In this document: positions 8,448-40,720 of the stretch, one piece after another
Position numbering within the stretch: the stretch's first letter is position 1
Layout of the letters: the number at the start of each line of letters is the position of its first letter
Origin: Rubrobacter tropicus
GTDB taxonomy: Bacteria; Actinomycetota; Rubrobacteria; Rubrobacterales; Rubrobacteraceae
DNA: 64,000 bases
Direction: 5' to 3'
Assembly (NCBI RefSeq): GCF_011492945.1
Contig: NZ_CP045119.1
Coordinates: 2,728,001-2,792,000, forward strand
Notes under the pieces: generated by a model
The model's database searches: none
What the model saw: the letters and a program-made list of their open reading frames with translations, nothing else
Told to the model about the DNA's origin: nothing
Program-made: the position numbers and the translations under genes

Positions 8448-9884
8448 GTGCGGCCGCGTCCATGCTCTAGACTTACGGGCTGTAGAAGAAGAGAGGCGGC
8501 ACCGGTAAACGAGAACGCGAAAAACACATCAGAGCGCGGCCTGAGGGCGCTCCTCGACGGGCGGCGGCCGGTGCTCGGCGCGGTCTTTCTGGGCGGGTAC
8601 GCGTGGTCCACGTTCGCGCCGGGGTCGTTCGGGACGGCGCTCTTTCTGGGCGTGGGGGCCGTGCTGTTCGCGATCTCCGTGCCGTGGTCGAGCTCGTTTC
8701 ACCGGGCCTTCGCCCTGGTGGCCTTCGCGGCGCTCGCGGCGACCGTGCTCTCGGGGCGGTTCGTCGTCGGGGATTTTCTCGACGGGATGCCCACTTATTT
8801 CGGGATCGTGGCCGTGTTGCTCGTCTTGAGCATCGCGGGGTATCCGATCCGGGCGGCTCGCTACGGCGTGCAGATCCGGGCGCTGGTGGCCGCCCTGACG
8901 CGCCGCGGCGTCGGCATCAAGGCGACGAGCGGGGTGCTGGGTCACGTTCTGGGCGCGGTGCTCGACGTGGGGGCTTTCGTGCTCATAGACGTGATCACGG
9001 CCCGGGCGGCCCCAAAGTCCCGCCCCGACGCCCTGACCTGGGCCGGACGCGCCTTCTCCTTCGCCCCCCTCTGGACGAACCTGAACGTCTTCACGGCCAC
9101 CACGATAGTCCTGACCGGCGTCTCCTACCCGGGCCTCCTGGCCGCCACCTTCCCCTTTATCGTCCTCGGCCTGGCTGGCACGATCTTCACCGCCCAGTGG
9201 GAGGAGAAAGATGCGGCCGACGTCCCCGGCGCCCCGCTCGACCGGGGGGCGGCGGCGGTCCTGCTCTACCCCGTCCTGCTCGTCGCGGCGGTGGCCCTCG
9301 TGAACGTCCTCTTCCCCGGCCTGGCGCTCACGGCCGCCATAGCCGTGACGGTGGCCGTCATAGTCCTCCTCATCGCCGCCCTGGCAACCGCCCTGACCCG
9401 CCGCACGTCGCCCCTCTACAGGCTGGCCGGCGAGACGCGCGGCTCGCTCGCCTCCTCCCACGCCGAGTTCGCCCTCTTCGGCTCGGCCGGCATCCTGGTC
9501 ATCTCACTGCAGGCCCTGGGGGTGCTCGCGCCGCTCGGAGACCTCCTCTCCGCGCTGCCCGTGGCACTCGTCGCCCCGGCGCTCCTCGTCCTAATGGCGG
9601 TGGGCTTCGTCTCCGGCATACACGTCATCCCCATGGTCTTGCTCCTGGACGCCGCCTTCCCCCTCGACGCCGGCCCGGCCCCCGTCCTGTGGGCCGTCGC
9701 CATCCTGCTCGGCGCCCAGTCCACCATCCTGCTCACCCCGTTCTCCAGCGCCGTCACCATGCTCTCCCGCCTAACGGACCTGCACCCGCTCGAGATCGGC
9801 CCGAAGAGAAACTGGCGCTTCGAACTGTCCGTCATGCTGGCCGCCGCGCTCTACCTGGCACTTCTCACCGCGATACTGTTATGA
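8448..9884 (+). CDS. polytopic membrane protein, transporter-like
   Basis: At least ten hydrophobic segments spread over about 440-478 residues, with short loops and a cytoplasmic linker near residues 230-245. Repeated GVLGHVLGAVLDVGAF-type and PLWTNLNVFTATTIVL segments recall the ion-transporter superfamily, but I do not recognise a substrate family. The start is unresolved. The GTG at 8448 lies upstream of a possible TAGACT -10 at 8468-8473. A good GAGAGG site stands 8 bases before a GTA codon at 8508 where the protein-like sequence begins. The next in-frame start is the GTG at 8571. Confidence 0.7.
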   Translation: MRPRPCSRLTGCRRREAAPVNENAKNTSERGLRALLDGRRPVLGAVFLGGYAWSTFAPGSFGTALFLGVGAVLFAISVPWSSSFHRAFALVAFAALAATVLSGRFVVGDFLDGMPTYFGIVAVLLVLSIAGYPIRAARYGVQIRALVAALTRRGVGIKATSGVLGHVLGAVLDVGAFVLIDVITARAAPKSRPDALTWAGRAFSFAPLWTNLNVFTATTIVLTGVSYPGLLAATFPFIVLGLAGTIFTAQWEEKDAADVPGAPLDRGAAAVLLYPVLLVAAVALVNVLFPGLALTAAIAVTVAVIVLLIAALATALTRRTSPLYRLAGETRGSLASSHAEFALFGSAGILVISLQALGVLAPLGDLLSALPVALVAPALLVLMAVGFVSGIHVIPMVLLLDAAFPLDAGPAPVLWAVAILLGAQSTILLTPFSSAVTMLSRLTDLHPLEIGPKRNWRFELSVMLAAALYLALLTAILL

Positions 9885-10054
9885 GCAGCACGCTCGCTTC
9901 GCGAGCTAGTCAGCACGCTACGCCCTTCGGGCTCCGCTCTCAGCGCGGCGCTTCGCGCCTTTCAGCACGCTTCGGGCCTGCGGCCCTCGCTCTCAGCCCG
10001 TCAGCAAAAGCAAGAAGCTGAAGTGCTGACAAGCGAAGGCCGTAGCGCGCTACA
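9885..10054. repeat. composite CAGC/GCTGA intergenic repeat, divergent copy
   Basis: Fills the space between two convergent genes. It consists of short stem-forming pieces (GCTCGCTTCGCGAGC, CTACGCCCTTCGGGCTCCG) alternating with CAGCACGCT and CTCAGC units. It ends in a CAAAAGCAAGAAGCTGA core (9993-10022) and a GCGAAGGCCGTAGCGCGCTA block, matching the modules of the copies at 21828, 28411, 34068 and 54585. No coding potential. It may also end transcription from both sides. Confidence 0.7.
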
Positions 10055-10687
10055 TCACACCAGAACGTAGAGAGCTATGGCCACAAAATGACACACGCTG
10101 CCGAGCAGAACGAAGACGTGCCAGAGGGCGTGCGAGTAGGGGATTTTGCGGTGGTAGAACAGGGTGCCGGCGGTGTAGGAGATGCCGCCGGCGAGCAGCC
10201 AGACGAGGGCGCCCGGGGAGAGGGCTTCGATCAGGGGCTTGAGGGCGACGACGCCGAGCCAGCCCATGGCGACGTAGGCCACGGTGGACATCACGGCGAA
10301 GCGGCCCGTGGCGAAGACCTTGAAGACGATGCCCGCTACGGCCATCGCCCAGACGAGACCGAAGAGGGTCCAGCCCCATCCCCCGCCGAGGCCGACGAGA
10401 ACGAAAGGCGTGTAGGTGCCCGCGATCAACAGGTAGATGGCGCAATGGTCGAGCACCCGCAACACGCGCTTTACCCCGGGCCTCCGAAACGCGTGGTACA
10501 GCGTGGAAGCCGCGTAGAGCGCCACGAGCGTCGCCCCGTAGACCCCGGCGGTCGCCACGTGCAACGCCTCGTCCCGGACCACCCCGAGGTACACGAGGAC
10601 CCCGACCCCGACGACGCTCGCCAGCAACCCGACGGCGTGGGTAACGACGTTGGCGACCTCCTCCCCGCCCGAGTAACGCGCCTCCAA
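10055..10687 (-). CDS. hemolysin III / PAQR family membrane protein
   Basis: Seven-helix protein of 210 residues of the TrhA/YqfA (hemolysin III) type. Hallmarks are NVVTHAVGLLASVVGV at the start, ASTLYHAFR (His in a conserved SxxxH), LDHCAIYLLIAGTYTPF and the final YSHALWHVFVLLGSVCHF histidines, which bind a metal in the PAQR superfamily. The start is a TTG two bases after the upstream MBL gene's stop. It is the last gene of an eight-gene lipid operon (18468 to 10055), which suits a membrane-lipid or membrane-homeostasis role; that role is inference. Confidence 0.88.
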   Translation of the reverse strand: MEARYSGGEEVANVVTHAVGLLASVVGVGVLVYLGVVRDEALHVATAGVYGATLVALYAASTLYHAFRRPGVKRVLRVLDHCAIYLLIAGTYTPFVLVGLGGGWGWTLFGLVWAMAVAGIVFKVFATGRFAVMSTVAYVAMGWLGVVALKPLIEALSPGALVWLLAGGISYTAGTLFYHRKIPYSHALWHVFVLLGSVCHFVAIALYVLV

Positions 10688-10689
10688 CC

Positions 10690-11685
10690 CTACGCGGCCT
10701 CGTAGGTGACCGGCTCGTCCTCCCGCGCCCGCGCCCGGCCTTCGAGGGCGAGCTGGTCGAGGTGGGCCAGCGTCTCGGCGAGGGCGAAGCACCGCTGGTA
10801 GACCGACAGGGTACCCCGGAAGACGATCCTGGAGACCTCGTAAGGCGTTCTGGGTCCGGCGCCCAGGGTGGCGCGCATGGCGTTCAGCCGTTCGGCGTGG
10901 TGGCCCGAGATCTCCGCGACGCGGCCTTGGAGGTCGTGGAAGACGGGGCCGTGCCCCGGCAGCACGAGGTCGGCCCCGAGGCCGCGCATCTCCTCCAACG
11001 AGGCAAGGTAGCGGGCGAGCGGGTGGGGGTCCGTCTCCGGCCAGATGCCTACGTTTGGCGTGATCCCGAGCATCAGGTGGTCCGCGGCGTACAGGATCCC
11101 ACGCCCCTCGTCGTGCAGGACGAGCTGATGGTCGGCGTGCCCGGGCGCGTGCAGGACGCGCGCGGCCCCGTCCCCGAGCGGCACCTTCTCCCCGGCGGAG
11201 AGCGGCGACAACTCCTCCGGCAACGCAAGCCCCGACCTCATCCCCGCGGCACCCTTCTCTGCCATCTCGGGCGGCATCCCGTGCCGGACGAGCAGGTCCA
11301 CGAAAGGACCCGCGTCGGGCGAGCCCCAGAGCCTCCTCGCGAACGGAATCTCGGCCTCCAGCATGAAGACCGGCGCCGCCGAGACCTCCTGCAACCACCG
11401 CGCCGCCCCTATGTGGTCCGGATGAAAGTGCGTCACCACAATCCTCGATACGTCCCGCGAAAGGTCGCAGCCGGCCACGTAGGCGCCGGCCTTCCAGGCC
11501 TCGCGGGCCGGCGGGTAATCGTAGCCGGCGTCCACCAGGGTCCAACCATCCGTACCCTCGATCAGGTAGACGGCAACGAACCCCAAGGGGAAGGGCACCG
11601 GCAGCTTGATCTGCCACACCCCCTCGACGACCTCGGCCGCCTCGCCGACACTTTGCGTGGCAAGGCCGGCGGGAAGCACGCTCAA
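10690..11685 (-). CDS. MBL-fold metallo-hydrolase
   Basis: Metallo-beta-lactamase superfamily hydrolase of 331 residues. HFHPDHIG (the HxHxDH dinuclear metal motif, near 86-92), HAPGHADHQ, ILYAADHL and VLPGHGPV supply the remaining metal ligands in the expected order, followed by a helical C-terminal domain as in the glyoxalase II/LACTB2-like branch. It starts with a TTG that overlaps the TGA of the alpha/beta hydrolase gene (TTGA), with GAGG 7 bases upstream. In an operon with beta-oxidation genes it may cleave a thioester or lactone, but the substrate cannot be read. Confidence 0.88.
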   Translation of the reverse strand: MSVLPAGLATQSVGEAAEVVEGVWQIKLPVPFPLGFVAVYLIEGTDGWTLVDAGYDYPPAREAWKAGAYVAGCDLSRDVSRIVVTHFHPDHIGAARWLQEVSAAPVFMLEAEIPFARRLWGSPDAGPFVDLLVRHGMPPEMAEKGAAGMRSGLALPEELSPLSAGEKVPLGDGAARVLHAPGHADHQLVLHDEGRGILYAADHLMLGITPNVGIWPETDPHPLARYLASLEEMRGLGADLVLPGHGPVFHDLQGRVAEISGHHAERLNAMRATLGAGPRTPYEVSRIVFRGTLSVYQRCFALAETLAHLDQLALEGRARAREDEPVTYEAA

Positions 11686-34181: not shown

Positions 34182-34826
34182 TCAACCTCCCAAGCCCGCC
34201 TCGCGGGCGCGGATGGCGGCCTGGACGCGGTCTGCGACCTGGAGCTTGCGGAAGATGTTGGAGACGTGGTTCTGGACTGTCTTGAGGCTGAGGAAGAGTT
34301 CGGCCGAGATCTCGGCGTTGCTAGCCCCGCGCGCGATGCGGGCCAGGATCTCCTCTTCCCGCTCGGTCAACTCGGGGAACGCCCGCGCGTTCTGGGGCCG
34401 CCCGGCGGAGAACAGCCCCATCACCCGCCGGGCGATGCCGGGACCGAAGATTGCCTCCCCGTTGGCGACGGCGCGGATGGCGCGCAGGACCTCGTCCTGG
34501 TGCGCCCCCTTCAACAAGTAGCCCAAAGCGCCGGCCCGCACGGCGGCGAAGACCGAGTCGTCGTCCTCGAGCATGGTAACGACGAGTACGCTGGCGTCGG
34601 GATTGAATCTCAGTATGTCGCGCGTCGCCTCGATGCCGTTCTTGTTCGGCATGTTGAGGTCCATCAGGATCACGTCGGGCCGCAGCTCGGCGGCCAGCCT
34701 GACGGCCTCCTCCCCGTCGGCGGCCTCCCCGACGACCTCGGTCTCCTCCACCGAGTCGAGCAGCCCGTGCATCCCGTCCCTGAAGAGGGGATGGTCGTCG
34801 GCGAGGAGCACGCGGAAGGGGCTCAC
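34182..34826 (-). CDS. NarL/FixJ-type response regulator
   Basis: 214 residues: receiver domain with LLADDHPLFRDGM, phospho-acceptor Asp in VILMDLNMPNKNG, switch Thr/Lys in VVTMLEDDD and YLLKGAHQDE, then a LuxR-type helix-turn-helix (LTEREEEILARIARGASNAE, LSLKTVQNHVSNIFRKLQV). Start is a GTG overlapping the kinase gene's TGA (GTGA), so the pair is coupled. Target genes not identifiable; the adjacent secreted-protein genes are candidates. Confidence 0.94.
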   Translation of the reverse strand: MSPFRVLLADDHPLFRDGMHGLLDSVEETEVVGEAADGEEAVRLAAELRPDVILMDLNMPNKNGIEATRDILRFNPDASVLVVTMLEDDDSVFAAVRAGALGYLLKGAHQDEVLRAIRAVANGEAIFGPGIARRVMGLFSAGRPQNARAFPELTEREEEILARIARGASNAEISAELFLSLKTVQNHVSNIFRKLQVADRVQAAIRAREAGLGG

Positions 34827-36964
34827 GCGCCGCCCTCGGGGGAAAACGGCAGTTCCGCCCGCACGAGGGTGCCGCCGTCCGGGTGCGCCCCCACGGCCAG
34901 CGTGCCGCCGAGCTCTTCCGCCCGCTCCCGCATGGAGGAGAGGCCCACGCCGAGACCGCCGTCCGGGTTTAGCCCGCGCCCGTCGTCCCGAACCTCGAGG
35001 AGGAGCACACCGGCCCCCTCGTCGGGCCCCACCGTTACCCTGCACGAGCGCGCGTCCGAGTGGCGGACGACGTTGGTCATCGCCTCCTGCGCTATGTGGT
35101 AGGCCGCGACCTCCACGGCCGCCGGGAGCGACGGCAGCGGGCCGCCGTTCAGGCTCTCGACCTCGACCTCTAGCCCGTTGTGGCTGTACTGGGCTGCCGT
35201 CTCGAGGAGGGCCGGGATCAGGCCAAGCTCGTCGAGCGTGGGCGGACGGAGGGCGTGGACGGAGCGCCGGACGTCGGATACGGCATCCCGGGCGCGCTCG
35301 GCCAGATCCGAGAGCAGGTCCGCTGCGTCGGGGTCGCGGGCGAGCTTGTTACGGGCCGTCTCTATCTTCAGGGTGAGGGCGGCGAGCCGCGGCCCCACGC
35401 CGTCGTGCAGGTCGCGCCTGAGGCGCCGGCGCTCCTCCTCGCGGGCCGTGACGAGGCGCTCGCGCGAGTTCTGCAGGTCCGCGGTCAGGCGCGAGGCGCG
35501 CACGGCGACCCCGATCTGGCGCGCCAGGTCCCCCAGGAGCCGGCGGTCGGCCGGCGCGAAATCCGTCTCGCCCGCGCGCCGTCCGAGGACCAGCCACCCG
35601 ACCCGCTCTCCCCCGTAGAGGAGCGGGAGCCTGACGATGTCGGCCACGGGTGCGCCGGTCTCGGCGGCGACCTCGCCCGGCCCGCCGACCTCGATGGCGA
35701 CGTAGGGGAGCCTCAGGGCCTCGGCGACCGTGCGGGTGACGGCAGGCAGCATGACGTTGGGGGTAAGCGTGGTCTCCAGGCGCTCCCCGAGCTTGCTTAG
35801 CGCCGCGTAGGGGTCGTCGCGCTCGCCGTAGAGCAGGCGGTTGACCCCGCGTTGCAGACGGTCCCTCAGTGGCGCGAAGAGGACCGCGACGAGCCCCGTG
35901 GCGAAGAGCGAGACCAGGAAGTTGCCGCCCGAGTGGAAGATCATGCCCGTCACGCCCACGATAAGCACGTAGAGGGCGAGGACGCAGGCCGTCAGGGCCC
36001 CGTAGACGAGCGCGCGGTTGATGATGAGGTCGGCCTTGAACAGGTGGTAGCGCTGCATCGCGATGCCGAAGGCCACGGGCATCGGAAGGGCGAAGAGCCA
36101 GAACGCCGGGACGCCGTAGAGTTCGTAGAGACCGCGGGCGTGACCCGAGTCGGGCAGGAGCACGTCGGGCAGGTACACGAGCCCGTAACCGACGCACGCG
36201 CCGGCCACGATCAGAACCACCCACTTGGTCATCAGGCGCTGCCTCATATCCGCCCGGCGGTAACGCACGGCCTGCGCCGCCAGGCCCAGGCCCCAGCCGA
36301 GCAGCAGGAGGACCAGGAACGCGGCGAACGACGCCTCGAACGGGTCTATCAGGCTGAACCACGATCCCGGAAAGATCCCCCACGCCAAACAATAGAAGAA
36401 CCAGGCAACGGCGCTGAACTTTGTCCAACCGGGCACGAAGCGGCCGTCCGGAAAGAGCAAGAAGAACATTACCGCCAGCAGCACCCCTGCGGCCTGCGTC
36501 AGGTCCGCGAGCGGTTGCAGTACGGGGGGAAGGGCGAGCGCGTCCAGGGTCGGCGTCACCCACACGGCGTAGGCTATAAAGACAGAGGAGAAGAAGAGCG
36601 AAGACCAGTCTCGCTTGTTGCGCCAGGCTATGGCAAGCGAGATCAGCGTAAAGGTCAGCACGAAGAGGACCTCGAGCGACAACACGGCGAGGGCGTAATG
36701 GCCGGCCCCTGGCACCAGGTACCCGAGCGGGCCGTCCACGGCCCCGAGATGGCCCGACACGCGGCGGGCCACCCCCGCGAGCTCCCCGTACCTGGCGGGT
36801 ACGGCGAGGACGAACAGGATCAGGGACAACCCCACGAGCGTCCGCGCCGCGACCCGCGCGATCAGGGGGGCGCGCGGCGCGTTGGACGGCGCCGCGTCAG
36901 GCTTCATCGCCGCCCACACGGACAAGGCGTCCGGCGGGATGAGCCCCTCGACCGCCCCTCTCAC
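34823..36964 (-). CDS. membrane sensor histidine kinase (NarL-system type)
   Basis: 713 residues. About eight to ten hydrophobic helices fill residues 30-340 (two blocks around 30-110 and 120-340); a GAF-like domain follows, then the HisKA_3 dimerisation helix RRDLHDGVGPRLAALTLKIE with the phospho-His, and an HATPase_c domain with N-box NVVRHSDAR and G-boxes VRDDGRGL and GVGLSSMRERA. Start GTG with GGGAG upstream; an ATG at 36907 is the alternative. The large membrane input suggests sensing in or across the bilayer. Ligand unknown. Confidence 0.9.
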   Translation of the reverse strand: MRGAVEGLIPPDALSVWAAMKPDAAPSNAPRAPLIARVAARTLVGLSLILFVLAVPARYGELAGVARRVSGHLGAVDGPLGYLVPGAGHYALAVLSLEVLFVLTFTLISLAIAWRNKRDWSSLFFSSVFIAYAVWVTPTLDALALPPVLQPLADLTQAAGVLLAVMFFLLFPDGRFVPGWTKFSAVAWFFYCLAWGIFPGSWFSLIDPFEASFAAFLVLLLLGWGLGLAAQAVRYRRADMRQRLMTKWVVLIVAGACVGYGLVYLPDVLLPDSGHARGLYELYGVPAFWLFALPMPVAFGIAMQRYHLFKADLIINRALVYGALTACVLALYVLIVGVTGMIFHSGGNFLVSLFATGLVAVLFAPLRDRLQRGVNRLLYGERDDPYAALSKLGERLETTLTPNVMLPAVTRTVAEALRLPYVAIEVGGPGEVAAETGAPVADIVRLPLLYGGERVGWLVLGRRAGETDFAPADRRLLGDLARQIGVAVRASRLTADLQNSRERLVTAREEERRRLRRDLHDGVGPRLAALTLKIETARNKLARDPDAADLLSDLAERARDAVSDVRRSVHALRPPTLDELGLIPALLETAAQYSHNGLEVEVESLNGGPLPSLPAAVEVAAYHIAQEAMTNVVRHSDARSCRVTVGPDEGAGVLLLEVRDDGRGLNPDGGLGVGLSSMRERAEELGGTLAVGAHPDGGTLVRAELPFSPEGGA

Positions 36965-37055: not shown

Positions 37056-38546
37056 TCACCTGACCGTGAACGACCAGGACCTCGCGCCGACGTTGCCGGC
37101 CTCATCGGTGGCGACCAGCCTGACGTTCTTCTTTCCGGCCGAGAGACTCGGGGAGTTGTAGACGAGGACGTCCGTCGAGGAACCGTAAGTGTACTTGGCC
37201 GCGGGGATCAAAGCCCCGTTCACGTAGAGCTTTATGTCGCCCTCGACGAGGTTCGTCAGGTTGTCCTTGACGGTCGCCCTGATCGTGGGCGTGCGGTCGC
37301 TCGTGGTCGATCCCGAAAGGGGGCGCATGGCGCTGATAGTCGGCTTTATGGTGTCGACGGTCCACGTGCGGACCGCCGGGGTCGCGTCCGCGTTGCCCGC
37401 CACGTCTGTGGCCCGCACCCTGAAAGTGTGGGTCCCGTTCGCAACGGTATAGGTCTTCGGCGAGGCGCAGCCTGCGAAGGCGGCCCCGTCCAGGCTGCAC
37501 TCGAAGGCCGATCCCGTTTCGGAGGAGACGAAGCCGAGGCTCGCCGCGGCGTTCCTGGTCGGGTTCGGGGGGCCCGAGGTGATCGTGGTCTGGGGCGGGA
37601 TGGAGTCCTGCTGCCAGTCAGGCTTCTCGTCCTTACGCAGGGTGGTATCAACGCCCTTCTTGTTGGCACCGCTTTCGTCCATCATCCATATGTCCCCACC
37701 CCTCACGTACGCGATGCTGTTGCCATCAGGCGACCATGTGGGCTGCGAGCCCCCACCATCACCCGTGGTCAGGTTCACCTTGCCGCTGCCATTGCTCGCG
37801 TTCATCGTCCACACGTCTGCTTTTGTCGAGTAGGCAATCCGCGTGCCGTCGGGCGACCAGGTTGGGTCTTCGTCGTTGTACTGGTATACGGGGGTCATTG
37901 TGCTGTCGTCGTCCGTGAGGTTGAGTGCGTCGTTGGTAGCGGGGTTGGCATCCATCACGTAGATATTGCTGTTGGTGTCGCCAGGGCGTCCTTCGCTGAG
38001 GAAGGCGAAACGGCTTCCGTCGGGCGACCACGCGGGCTGCGTGTCGCGCACGCCTTGCGGGGTATTGGTCATCTGCACGAGGTCGCTACCGTCAGCGTCC
38101 ATCACCCATATCTCAAGGTCCGTGGTCGTGTCGGTATCAGACTTGCCTGCCACGAAGGCAATCCGCGTGCCATCGGGCGACCAGGTGGGCTCCTGTTCCG
38201 CTATCGTGTCCGTCGAGGTGAGCTGCTGCCGCCCGCTGCCGTCGGCGTTCATGACGGATATCTCTTTGCTGTTCCTGCTCGTGCTCTGGAAGACTATCCG
38301 CGTGCCATCGGGCGACCAGGTAGGCTGGCTCTCGCCAGGGCTGGTGCCGGGCACCTTGGCGGCGGTGCTGTTGCCAGGGAAGGTCGTGTAGAGTCCAGGT
38401 CCGGTAGAGCGGTCGCTCCAGAAGATGATCTTGCCGTTCTTCCCCGGGAACGCCGCCTCCGCCGGTTTCGTCGCGAGCAGCGCGAGAAGCGCCAGGGACA
38501 CCGCCGCGATCAGCATGAAAAGTTTGATCTGGCCTGTCTTGGTCAT
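37056..38546 (-). CDS. secreted TolB-like beta-propeller protein with C-terminal Ig-like module
   Basis: 496 residues. A signal peptide (about 1-31, ending KPAEAAF) is followed by a propeller with six or seven blades marked by repeated PTWSPDGTRI / PAWSPDGSRF motifs, and then a C-terminal 170 residues (from TTITSGP) with ETGSAFECSLDGAAFAGC, VRATDVAGNADATPAVRTWT and TPTIRATVKDN. That tail is closely repeated in the next gene. Start ATG at 38546 with AAGGAA upstream. Extracellular; binding partner or glycan/protein target unknown. Confidence 0.85.
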   Translation of the reverse strand: MTKTGQIKLFMLIAAVSLALLALLATKPAEAAFPGKNGKIIFWSDRSTGPGLYTTFPGNSTAAKVPGTSPGESQPTWSPDGTRIVFQSTSRNSKEISVMNADGSGRQQLTSTDTIAEQEPTWSPDGTRIAFVAGKSDTDTTTDLEIWVMDADGSDLVQMTNTPQGVRDTQPAWSPDGSRFAFLSEGRPGDTNSNIYVMDANPATNDALNLTDDDSTMTPVYQYNDEDPTWSPDGTRIAYSTKADVWTMNASNGSGKVNLTTGDGGGSQPTWSPDGNSIAYVRGGDIWMMDESGANKKGVDTTLRKDEKPDWQQDSIPPQTTITSGPPNPTRNAAASLGFVSSETGSAFECSLDGAAFAGCASPKTYTVANGTHTFRVRATDVAGNADATPAVRTWTVDTIKPTISAMRPLSGSTTSDRTPTIRATVKDNLTNLVEGDIKLYVNGALIPAAKYTYGSSTDVLVYNSPSLSAGKKNVRLVATDEAGNVGARSWSFTVR

Positions 38547-38581
38547 CTGCAAGGTTCCTTTCTCCGAACCGGGTTTTTCCG

Positions 38582-40720
38582 TTACCTGATCGTGAAGTAC
38601 CAGGACTTCGTCCCGGCGTTCCTCGCCCCGTCCATCGCCACTATCTTCACGGTCTTCTTGCCTTTCGCGAGACTCGGCGAGTTGTAGACGAGGAGGCCCG
38701 TGGAAGCGGCGTACCTGAACTTGGCCGGAGGGATCGCTTTCCCCGCCACGTAGAGCTTTATGTTGCCCGTGCTCAGGGGTCTGTTGTCCTTGACGGTCGC
38801 CCTGATGGTCGGGGTCGTGTCCCGGATTACCGAACCGTGCCCGGGGGACATCCCGCTGATGGTCGGCTTTATTGTGTCGACGGTCCACGTGCGAACGGCG
38901 GGAGTAGTGTCCGCGTTGCCGGCCACGTCCTTCGCCCGCACGGAGAAGGTGTGGGGGCCGTTGGAGAGCCCGGTGTAGCCCTTCGGGGAGGAGCAGGCCG
39001 CGAATGCGCCGCCGTCCAGCCTGCACTCGAAGGTCGAACCGGTCTCGCTGGAGGCAAGGCCAAAGCTGGCGGAGGGGAGGTTGACCACGCCCGTCGGGCC
39101 CGAGGTTATGGTCGTGTCGGGGGCGTTGGTATCGAGCTGGCTGTCCAGCAAGATCCCGTCTTCTATCGCCGCCGTCGAGACGTTGCCCGCGTTGTCCCGG
39201 TACTGGACGTGGACGGTCTTGGTCCCGTCGCCGCCGCTCAAAAGCCACGAACGGCCCGTAGAGTAGGGTTCCCACGCGGACCACGTTTCGGTGTTCTCGT
39301 TGCGGAACCGCATGTGGCCCACCCCGGAGCCGGGCAGCGGGTCTGTGGCCGAGAGGTCGAGCCTCACCGTCGCGTTGTTCGTGGCGGCGGCGTCGCCGTT
39401 TATCCTGACCGTGCCCGTGGGCGCCACGTTGTTTACGGAGACGGTCCTCGCATACTCGTTCGTGCCGCCGTCCTTGTCCGTCACCCTGCCTCTGACCGTC
39501 ATGTTTGGCTGGTCGAGGGCGGTGCAGGTTTTGCTCGGGGCACCCGACGAAACAAAGCCGGGTCCGTCACCGCAGTCGAAGGCGTAGGAGAGCGCAGCCC
39601 CGTCGGCGCCCGACGGATCGGCGACGTTCGAGAGTGAGATCTGGAAGTTTCCGCCCTGGTCCACCTCTGCCGGGGCCTCGAAGGCTGCCGTCGGCGCCAC
39701 GTTGTTCACCGTGATCGTCCTGGTGTACTCGGTAAAGCCGCCGTCCTTATCGATGATCCGGGCGCGTACGGACCTGGCACCATTATCGTCGAAGGTGCAA
39801 TTAGTAGACGCAGCAGTACCGCTGCTTGCGTAGGTGGCCCCGTCGAGCGGGCCGCCGTTGCAGTCGAAGGCGTAGTGGAACCCGGCGGTCGTGTCGGCCT
39901 GTCCGTCTTGAGTATTGAAGTTGCCTTTGGCCAGGGAGATCGTCGCCGTGCCGCCCTCGTTGATCGAAGCCGGAGCGTCGAGCACCGCGACCGGGTCGCG
40001 GTTGGTGATAGTAACGTTCACGGTAGCGGTGCGGGAAGCCCCGTCGCTGTCAGTCGCAGTCGCGCTCACGCTACCCGTCGCCGGACCGTCGAAGAAACCG
40101 CACCAGACGGTGAACGAGCTTTCCTGCCACTCGGAACCGTTGGTGCCGCAACCAGTGTTCAGGGTCCACGTGTCGTTGCCCGGATCGCTTACCGAGAGGT
40201 TGTAGCCATGGGATGCGTAACCCAGCGCGAAACTGCCACCCTCCTGTACGCTGGGAAAGCCATTCTGCAGGGTAACCGCCGGGGCCACGTTGTTGACGCC
40301 GAGCGAGAAGGTGGTGTCCACAGAATCCGTGCCGTCGGAAGCGGTGATCGTGACGGTCCGGCTCTCGTCGGGGCCGTCGCTGGTACGGAACGTCCAGCTC
40401 CAGGTGCCGTTCGCGTCGTCTTTCGTCACGGTCCCGACGGAGGCGGAGAGGGTAACGGTGGCGTTGCCGTCAGGGTCCGAGAACGTGCCCGTGTTGGAAG
40501 CCGTCTGCCCCTCGTTGACGACCACGGAACCGTTGTTCGCGTTCACCGCGGGGGGCGTGTGCTCGTCGGGGATGCAGACCCGCACGCCGTCGACAAACTC
40601 GCAGGTTTGCGTGTGGTTGGCCCAGGCTGGTCCTGCCATGAGTACGGACAACAGCACCACCGCCAAAGCGGTGGCCGCCGCGTAAGACATCCGTCCCGTT
40701 CTCTCGACTATGCTTCTCAT
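38582..40720 (-). CDS. large secreted protein with PKD/cadherin-like repeats and the same C-terminal module
   Basis: 712 residues. Signal peptide about 1-34 (ending GPAWAN). Five or so immunoglobulin-like units with VNNVAPAVTLQ / VNNVAPTAAFEAP / VNNVAPTGTV spacers and DPDGNATVTL, DSDGAS, DKDGGF/DKDGGT motifs, which suggest calcium-binding PKD or cadherin folds. The last 170 residues repeat the tail of the downstream gene (ETGSTFECRLDGGAFAAC, SVRAKDVAGNADTTPAVRTW). No membrane anchor at the end. GGGGAG before the ATG. Probably an adhesive or cell-surface scaffold; cotranscribed with the propeller protein (35 bases apart). Confidence 0.85.
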   Translation of the reverse strand: MRSIVERTGRMSYAAATALAVVLLSVLMAGPAWANHTQTCEFVDGVRVCIPDEHTPPAVNANNGSVVVNEGQTASNTGTFSDPDGNATVTLSASVGTVTKDDANGTWSWTFRTSDGPDESRTVTITASDGTDSVDTTFSLGVNNVAPAVTLQNGFPSVQEGGSFALGYASHGYNLSVSDPGNDTWTLNTGCGTNGSEWQESSFTVWCGFFDGPATGSVSATATDSDGASRTATVNVTITNRDPVAVLDAPASINEGGTATISLAKGNFNTQDGQADTTAGFHYAFDCNGGPLDGATYASSGTAASTNCTFDDNGARSVRARIIDKDGGFTEYTRTITVNNVAPTAAFEAPAEVDQGGNFQISLSNVADPSGADGAALSYAFDCGDGPGFVSSGAPSKTCTALDQPNMTVRGRVTDKDGGTNEYARTVSVNNVAPTGTVRINGDAAATNNATVRLDLSATDPLPGSGVGHMRFRNENTETWSAWEPYSTGRSWLLSGGDGTKTVHVQYRDNAGNVSTAAIEDGILLDSQLDTNAPDTTITSGPTGVVNLPSASFGLASSETGSTFECRLDGGAFAACSSPKGYTGLSNGPHTFSVRAKDVAGNADTTPAVRTWTVDTIKPTISGMSPGHGSVIRDTTPTIRATVKDNRPLSTGNIKLYVAGKAIPPAKFRYAASTGLLVYNSPSLAKGKKTVKIVAMDGARNAGTKSWYFTIR

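Follow-up and report, generated by a model that had tools for sequence, protein, structure and literature searches.

The 64,000-nucleotide stretch of Rubrobacter tropicus DNA analysed here (the window; contig NZ_CP045119.1, positions 2,728,001 to 2,792,000) carries on its minus strand two adjacent genes, P2 and P1, whose predicted products are exported proteins with different front ends and a common tail. The last 98 amino acids (aa) of this tail, a predicted immunoglobulin-like (Ig-like) domain that we call module B, are the subject of this work. The features of the pair are the following.

38582..40720, minus strand: P2, a predicted exported PKD/Big_9-type protein of 712 aa (ATG at 40720, stop at 38582; N-terminal signal peptide recognised by eye), ending in ...SWYFTIR.
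39143..39424, minus strand: OmpL47-like domain of P2, internal and acidic (net charge -4.3 per 100 aa), whose homologues at the end of other proteins are cationic.
38876..39124, minus strand: module A of P2, a putative Big_13-like spacer, below the cut-off (26.4 versus 27 bits).
38585..38878, minus strand: module B of P2, a putative C-terminal Ig-like cap with a net charge of +12.2 per 100 aa (rest of P2, -6.0).
37056..38546, minus strand: P1, a predicted exported PD40/TolB-like propeller of 496 aa (ATG at 38546, stop at 37056; N-terminal signal peptide recognised by eye), ending in ...SWSFTVR.
37353..37598, minus strand: module A of P1, a putative Big_13-like spacer, below the cut-off (24.5 versus 27 bits).
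37059..37355, minus strand: module B of P1, a putative C-terminal Ig-like cap with a net charge of +4.0 per 100 aa (rest of P1, -4.9).

The two genes are separated by 35 bp. The longest reading frame of P1 reaches 39284, overlapping P2, and a signal peptide is obtained only with the start at 38546. The PD40 repeats of P1 (133.8 bits, five stretches) agree with the TolB-like propeller proposed in an earlier inspection of the window, hereafter the sequence-only reading, although P1 is not TolB by the NCBI cut-off (124.7 versus 343 bits). A PADLOC run on P1 gave no match. P2 contains a Big_9 match above the cut-off (25.4 versus 23.6 bits) and a PKD_4 match below it. Across their last 179 residues both proteins share 66% amino-acid identity, and the DNA of the tails contains blocks with 70-82% identity. 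This similarity is real and well above chance, although the description of the tails as nearly the same was too strong.

The tail is composed of two modules, A (~83 aa, Big_13-like) and B (98 aa, reaching the end of the protein). Considering it as a single unit had to be rejected, since A also exists without B, being followed in different proteins by B, Big_5, a further A or other sequence. In the counterpart of P2 in G013, a genome from another genus of the family, B is present and A is absent. Module A exceeds the Big_13 cut-off in two loci (L095 and L100), remaining below it in P1 and P2, and none of its 28 copies lies within 3 aa of a stop codon, two of them being found at 4 aa. These observations partly support a division of roles in which B alone would behave as a targeting or anchoring unit, A being a Big_13-like spacer. 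The reusable targeting or anchoring domain suggested by the sequence-only reading therefore survives only for B, the part that is reused, C-terminal and cationic.

The fold of the tail, whose prediction had also been suggested, was modelled with AlphaFold2 for the B of P2 (mean predicted local distance difference test score 97.0, nine strands). The model is an Ig-like beta-sandwich, which would place B in the bacterial Ig-like (Big) superfamily. Among solved structures, the best match by root-mean-square deviation (rmsd) is PorU 936-1050 (Z 11.0, rmsd 1.9 over 96 residues); CopC (5icu, Z 10.9), glucodextranase domain B (1ug9, Z 9.5) and SiiE were also matched, and generic Ig/E-set folds, including titin, appear at similar Z. 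The best profile match to a solved chain is the cadherin-like domain of SraP (PDB 4m03, E 2.2e-5). All these are likenesses at the level of the fold, from which no function is transferable. A CopC-like copper binding was set aside and an identity with PorU or the type IX secretion system was rejected, both having fold similarity and weak model matches only.

The B of P2 alone exceeds no Pfam or NCBIfam cut-off, reaching 20.0 bits for Big_7 (cut-off 24.1), and no other Pfam family was matched at E<=0.01. At this threshold, weak matches among 45 B sequences correspond to Big_13 (22), Big_7 (18), Big_5 (8), CE2_N (7) and Glucodextran_B (4); the other 44 members were compared by E-value alone, and some of them may pass the cut-offs of Big_7, Big_13 or Big_5, families that are likewise Ig-like. 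The PorU model gives weak matches in 2 of the 45 (best E 0.0049), and TIGR03437 Soli_cterm, which by its name is also a lineage-specific C-terminal domain and is likened to B by name only, in one (E 0.0085). The NCBIfam OmpL47-type model (cut-off 40 bits) reaches 33.6 bits on P1, with its best stretch in module A, and 43.2 bits on the whole of P2, in two stretches of which the best (448-517) precedes the tail; against the B of P2 alone it gave no match at E<=0.01. Two residues of B, D31 and D83, are near-invariant.

When the tail of P2 was searched against the 4.58-Mb genome of R. tropicus, nine further frames were obtained at E<=0.01, five of which carry B, giving a total of seven B proteins with P1 and P2. 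The five others are two subtilases (by motif), a multicopper oxidase (Pfam), a CHB_HEX_C-like repeat protein (by eye) and a protein with a PKD match below the cut-off. A profile made from the alignment of these seven copies (A1) recovers all of them at E<=1e-33, partly by construction, together with two weak matches, and in a set of 41 relatives it has matches in 18 of 25 family genomes at E<=0.001. Here the family is Rubrobacteraceae, as inferred, and is represented by 39 genomes unless otherwise stated. With a larger profile built from family copies (A3), B was detected in 25 of the 39 genomes at E<=1e-8. Thus, the search of the genome for the tail on further secreted proteins, put forward by the sequence-only reading, gave a positive answer. 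In a sample of its own phylum, to which the searches were confined (Actinomycetota, 396 genomes), 58 genomes are matched at E<=1e-8, of which 33 do not belong to the family. The copies behind A1 and A3 were all or nearly all flush with the protein end, which makes these searches partly circular, with a possible mild bias towards flush copies; nevertheless, internal copies outside the family were recovered. A plasmid search with one B module as query gave no match at E<=1e-3.

Within the family, the partners of B that exceed Pfam cut-offs are S8, M4, multicopper oxidase, GSDH, CHB_HEX_C and PD40, a beta-helix match falling below. A tree was built from 76 B modules with 99 columns, and 37 of its 73 branches are open; on it, 22 changes of partner label are counted, the minimum for the 18 labels being 17, and shuffled labels require a mean of 42.7. 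S8 requires 8 changes, of which the starred branches force only 1; it has to be considered that labels were partly set by hand and that 'S8' includes some frames set by locus. B has therefore been largely passed down with its partner, with some moves.

A different kind of B protein was also seen, short (~120-150 aa), with an Arg-rich N-terminal stretch, a divergent module B and no obvious signal peptide (L124, G012:C4 8733-9547; L102, L104, L106, L107, L109, L111, L112, L256 and L257). These proteins are paired on seven of those stretches and constitute a starred group on the tree (15 rows). In the one neighbourhood examined, that of G012, a ParA-like ATPase is found next to them together with several proteins of E3-binding or amphipathic-repeat type, which may represent an intracellular granule cluster.

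The position of B in the chain was judged only where the surrounding DNA was read, which comprises 81 distinct copies in the family and 31 outside. In 74 of the 81, B ends at most 3 residues from the stop codon, and 63 of these 74 proteins terminate in arginine or lysine; in controls, a terminal arginine is found in 24 of 176 open reading frames and 80 of 578 called genes. The seven remaining copies end 8 to 114 residues before the stop, some in apparently broken frames, and no protein in the set of 81 has two B copies. Outside the family, none of the 31 copies lies within 3 residues of a stop, at least 20 further residues following each of them, with 17 in frames that run off the piece read. 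On a contig of Rubrobacter sp., B ends 0 aa from the stop and has a charge of +11.1.

A flush position is not unique to B, an idea rejected with Big_5 as a control. Among the best-scoring Big_5 loci returned by the search, this domain is flush in 19 of the 27 family loci whose stop codon was covered (with partial matches in two of these 19) and in none of 23 outside the family, and therefore the terminal position is considered a lineage trait. A 1521-residue frame elsewhere in R. tropicus (L020 2438-7003; C1 ~721937-726502), with many tandem Ig-like repeats, closes with a Big_5 domain separated from the stop by 2 residues, the frame ending in ...SWNFRVR. Judging from these positions, B seems to be an internal Ig-like domain turned into a C-terminal cap in the lineage of Rubrobacteraceae.

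An N-terminal segment resembling an export signal is present in 37 of 47 B proteins by a crude test. As far as this heuristic can tell, B sits at the C-terminal end of exported proteins, as wall-retention modules of the GW type do. B proteins do not have the arrangement of LPXTG-type sortase substrates, since in 74 of 81 cases the 0-3 aa that follow B provide no space for a helix, and LPXTG/LAXTG-like strings appear in the last 150 aa of only two of the 81, both ending in B. In P1 and P2 nothing lies downstream of the tail, and there is no LPXTG motif followed by a helix, in line with the sequence-only reading.

The second characteristic of B is its charge. In 44 proteins, its median net charge is +8.35 per 100 aa, versus -7.0 for the remainder of the same protein, and B is more positive than the rest of its own protein in 43 of the 44 and in each of the 12 partner groups (of which six contain one protein only). 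This set omits eight loci with doubtful reading frames, N-terminally open frames and short proteins. The single exception left (L249:7683-8288, by recalculation) is also a doubtful frame; in a rougher first count the proportion was 45 of 47, the exceptions L243 and L246 being later dropped as doubtful frames. Gene and signal-peptide calls for the charge, export-signal and control counts were made with home-made heuristics. Outside the family, B copies have a median of -6.9 per 100 aa (n=31).

A similar behaviour is found in other Ig-like domains. Family Big_5 domains ending at most 8 residues from the stop have a charge of +6.9 (n=20; range 0 to +15.3), versus -4.7 for the other, internal ones (n=6) and a median of -2.9 for those outside the family (n=23); module A has -3.3 (n=27). 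This count omits four Big_5 loci, in which the match was partial or double, and three A loci with a partial match. With the OmpL47 model, few family genomes are detected (6 of 39 at E<=1e-6). A two-row alignment taken in its place gave 7 matches in 5 of the 39 genomes: five copies located 0-4 aa from the stop have charges from +2.2 to +10.6, and the internal ones are acidic both in P2 and in its G013 counterpart (-5.3). Thus, three Ig-like families (B, Big_5 and OmpL47-like) are cationic when terminal and mostly acidic when internal. In 51 secreted-like proteins without B, drawn by position from 800 kb of the R. tropicus genome plus the window, without other B loci, the last 98 aa have a median of -4.1, and only three reach +4 or more. 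Base composition was rejected as the cause of the charge, an explanation against which the paired within-protein test, module A and the other secreted-like proteins argue. With respect to copies outside the family, lysine and arginine gains are greatest at columns 37, 74, 78, 30, 91, 21, 69 and 96 of B, the change at column 36 being chiefly the loss of an acidic residue; according to strand parity in the DSSP line of the model, columns 41, 74, 78 and 96 may lie on the outer face of one sheet.

We propose that module B is a lineage-specific, C-terminal, cationic Ig-like cap for non-covalent, electrostatic retention in the cell envelope, a reading drawn from sequence to which we give a probability of about 0.45. 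Exported proteins would cross the membrane and then fold outside, where the cationic last domain would provide a non-covalent attachment to some anionic polymer, either of the envelope or of the surrounding matrix (such as a teichoic-acid-like or acidic glycopolymer), while the acidic body would carry the catalytic or binding function. In the family, Big_5 and OmpL47-like domains would take the same role when they are C-terminal and cationic. Three Ig-like families on unrelated proteins are cationic as the last domain, which is best explained by an anionic partner that they share outside the cell, the cell envelope being the likeliest one. Since B clusters by partner on the tree, the independence of the cationic terminal state rests on the existence of three different families. 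Sortase matches (PF04203) are present in all 39 family genomes (23 in R. tropicus, 3-18 in the other 38), and therefore the B cap would be a parallel, sortase-independent route. A wider proposal, which should be taken as tentative and rather doubtful, is that of a lineage-wide C-terminal code, in which many exported proteins would be under selection to end in a cationic Ig-like fold, the three families having been separately remodelled from acidic to cationic in the C-terminal slot as a sortase-independent system of surface retention.

The class of function proposed has well-known precedents. GW modules, such as those of InlB of Listeria, are C-terminal, basic, SH3-like domains. One report (PMC3415414) describes that GW proteins attach to lipoteichoic acid, and that the modules act as repeats, a single GW being released. 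B, by analogy with those of InlB, would provide a non-covalent association with the Gram-positive surface without LPXTG, but, unlike them, it is Ig-like and single.

Several points weigh against a retention cap. The terminal-cationic rule is broken in both directions, with two module A copies located 4 aa from the stop that are not cationic and two of the six internal family Big_5 copies that are positive, and the B of P1 itself has the low charge given above. No B was detected at E<=1e-8 in 14 of the 39 family genomes, some of them incomplete, which makes it dispensable. The cationic state of B may go back to a single old event and have been inherited many times since, and the short B proteins of the ParA/E3-binding cluster hint at a cytosolic use. 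The charge could instead favour solubility, the binding of polysaccharides or nucleic acids, or a docking on the acidic body of the same protein.

Among the alternatives, the one that best resists is a passive structural cap, in which B would close and stabilise the C-terminal end and its charge would tune solubility, with no particular ligand. Ig-like domains are common stability modules, the model of B matches many generic Ig/E-set folds at similar Z, and D31 and D83, whose loop placement is taken from DSSP, could be ligands of Ca2+ where B meets the domain before it. However, the cationic terminal slot of three Ig-like families and the non-cationic ends of other secreted-like proteins (with just 3 of 51 at +4 or more) would remain unexplained, and we consider this explanation rather unlikely. 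Less probable still is a substrate- or matrix-binding module directed to targets outside the own cell, such as acidic polysaccharides, extracellular DNA or minerals; the cationic surface, the fold likeness to glucodextranase domain B and the weak Glucodextran_B and CE2_N matches speak for it, but the partners of B (propellers, PKD proteins, oxidases, proteases) have unrelated or no known substrates.

It is very improbable that B acts as a sorting signal for machinery dedicated to export or processing. In type IX secretion, a system of Gram-negative Bacteroidota, diverse cargo proteins carry an Ig-like C-terminal domain, and B shares with this domain the fold and the diversity of cargo, as well as an extreme C-terminal placement with a terminal basic residue (63 of 74), PorU 936-1050 being in addition the best fold match by rmsd. 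Nevertheless, most B proteins (37 of the 47 examined) already seem to have an N-terminal export signal, the charge gains are distributed over the whole domain without a terminal tag, and the matched stretch of PorU lies before PorU's own C-terminal signal. We know of no partner machine in the Rubrobacteraceae lineage, no search for one having been made. Finally, a tail simply duplicated in tandem from one gene to the next, without broader significance, would fit the adjacency of P1 and P2 and their B modules, 63% identical and close on the tree, but it is refuted as a full explanation by the unrelated front ends and by the presence of B in five other R. tropicus proteins and 25 of the 39 family genomes, so the tail is not restricted to these two genes.

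Two regulatory genes adjoin the pair, and their link to P1 and P2 is only inferred.

34823..36964, minus strand: sensor histidine kinase (HisKA_3, HATPase_c).
34182..34826, minus strand: response regulator (Response_reg, LuxR/GerE).

In G013 the same order of PKD protein and propeller is followed by two other frames and then by a kinase and a regulator, each 66% identical to those of the window. On that stretch (L122, G013:C187), histidine kinases are found on both sides of the pair (530-2734 and 9318-11360), and the one that precedes it is ~51% identical to the window kinase. With this linkage supported by one further genome, control of P1 and P2 by the two-component system, as the sequence-only reading had it, is plausible; the other five B genes of R. 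tropicus are located elsewhere. Identity to the G013 counterparts is 56% for the body of P1 and 77% for that of P2. The two B modules of G013 are 76% identical to each other, whereas the B of P1 has 59% identity with its G013 counterpart, values that fit some homogenisation within genomes.

The fold of B is ordinary and its class of function is already known. As far as we know, how exported proteins with neither a lipid nor a sortase anchor are retained by the cell is poorly known in this branch of Actinomycetota, and in its open-access literature (titles and abstract starts) no retention system of this kind was found; nor was a description found in open-access literature of module B, or of a lineage in which several Ig-like families are used as cationic ends of proteins. 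If the proposed role of the cap is true, these domains would be a clean case of a fold whose charge has been remodelled by its position in the chain, and B could serve as a surface-display tag. In that case, the exported enzymes of Rubrobacteraceae that stay bound to the cell would also be predictable from sequence by the presence of the cap.

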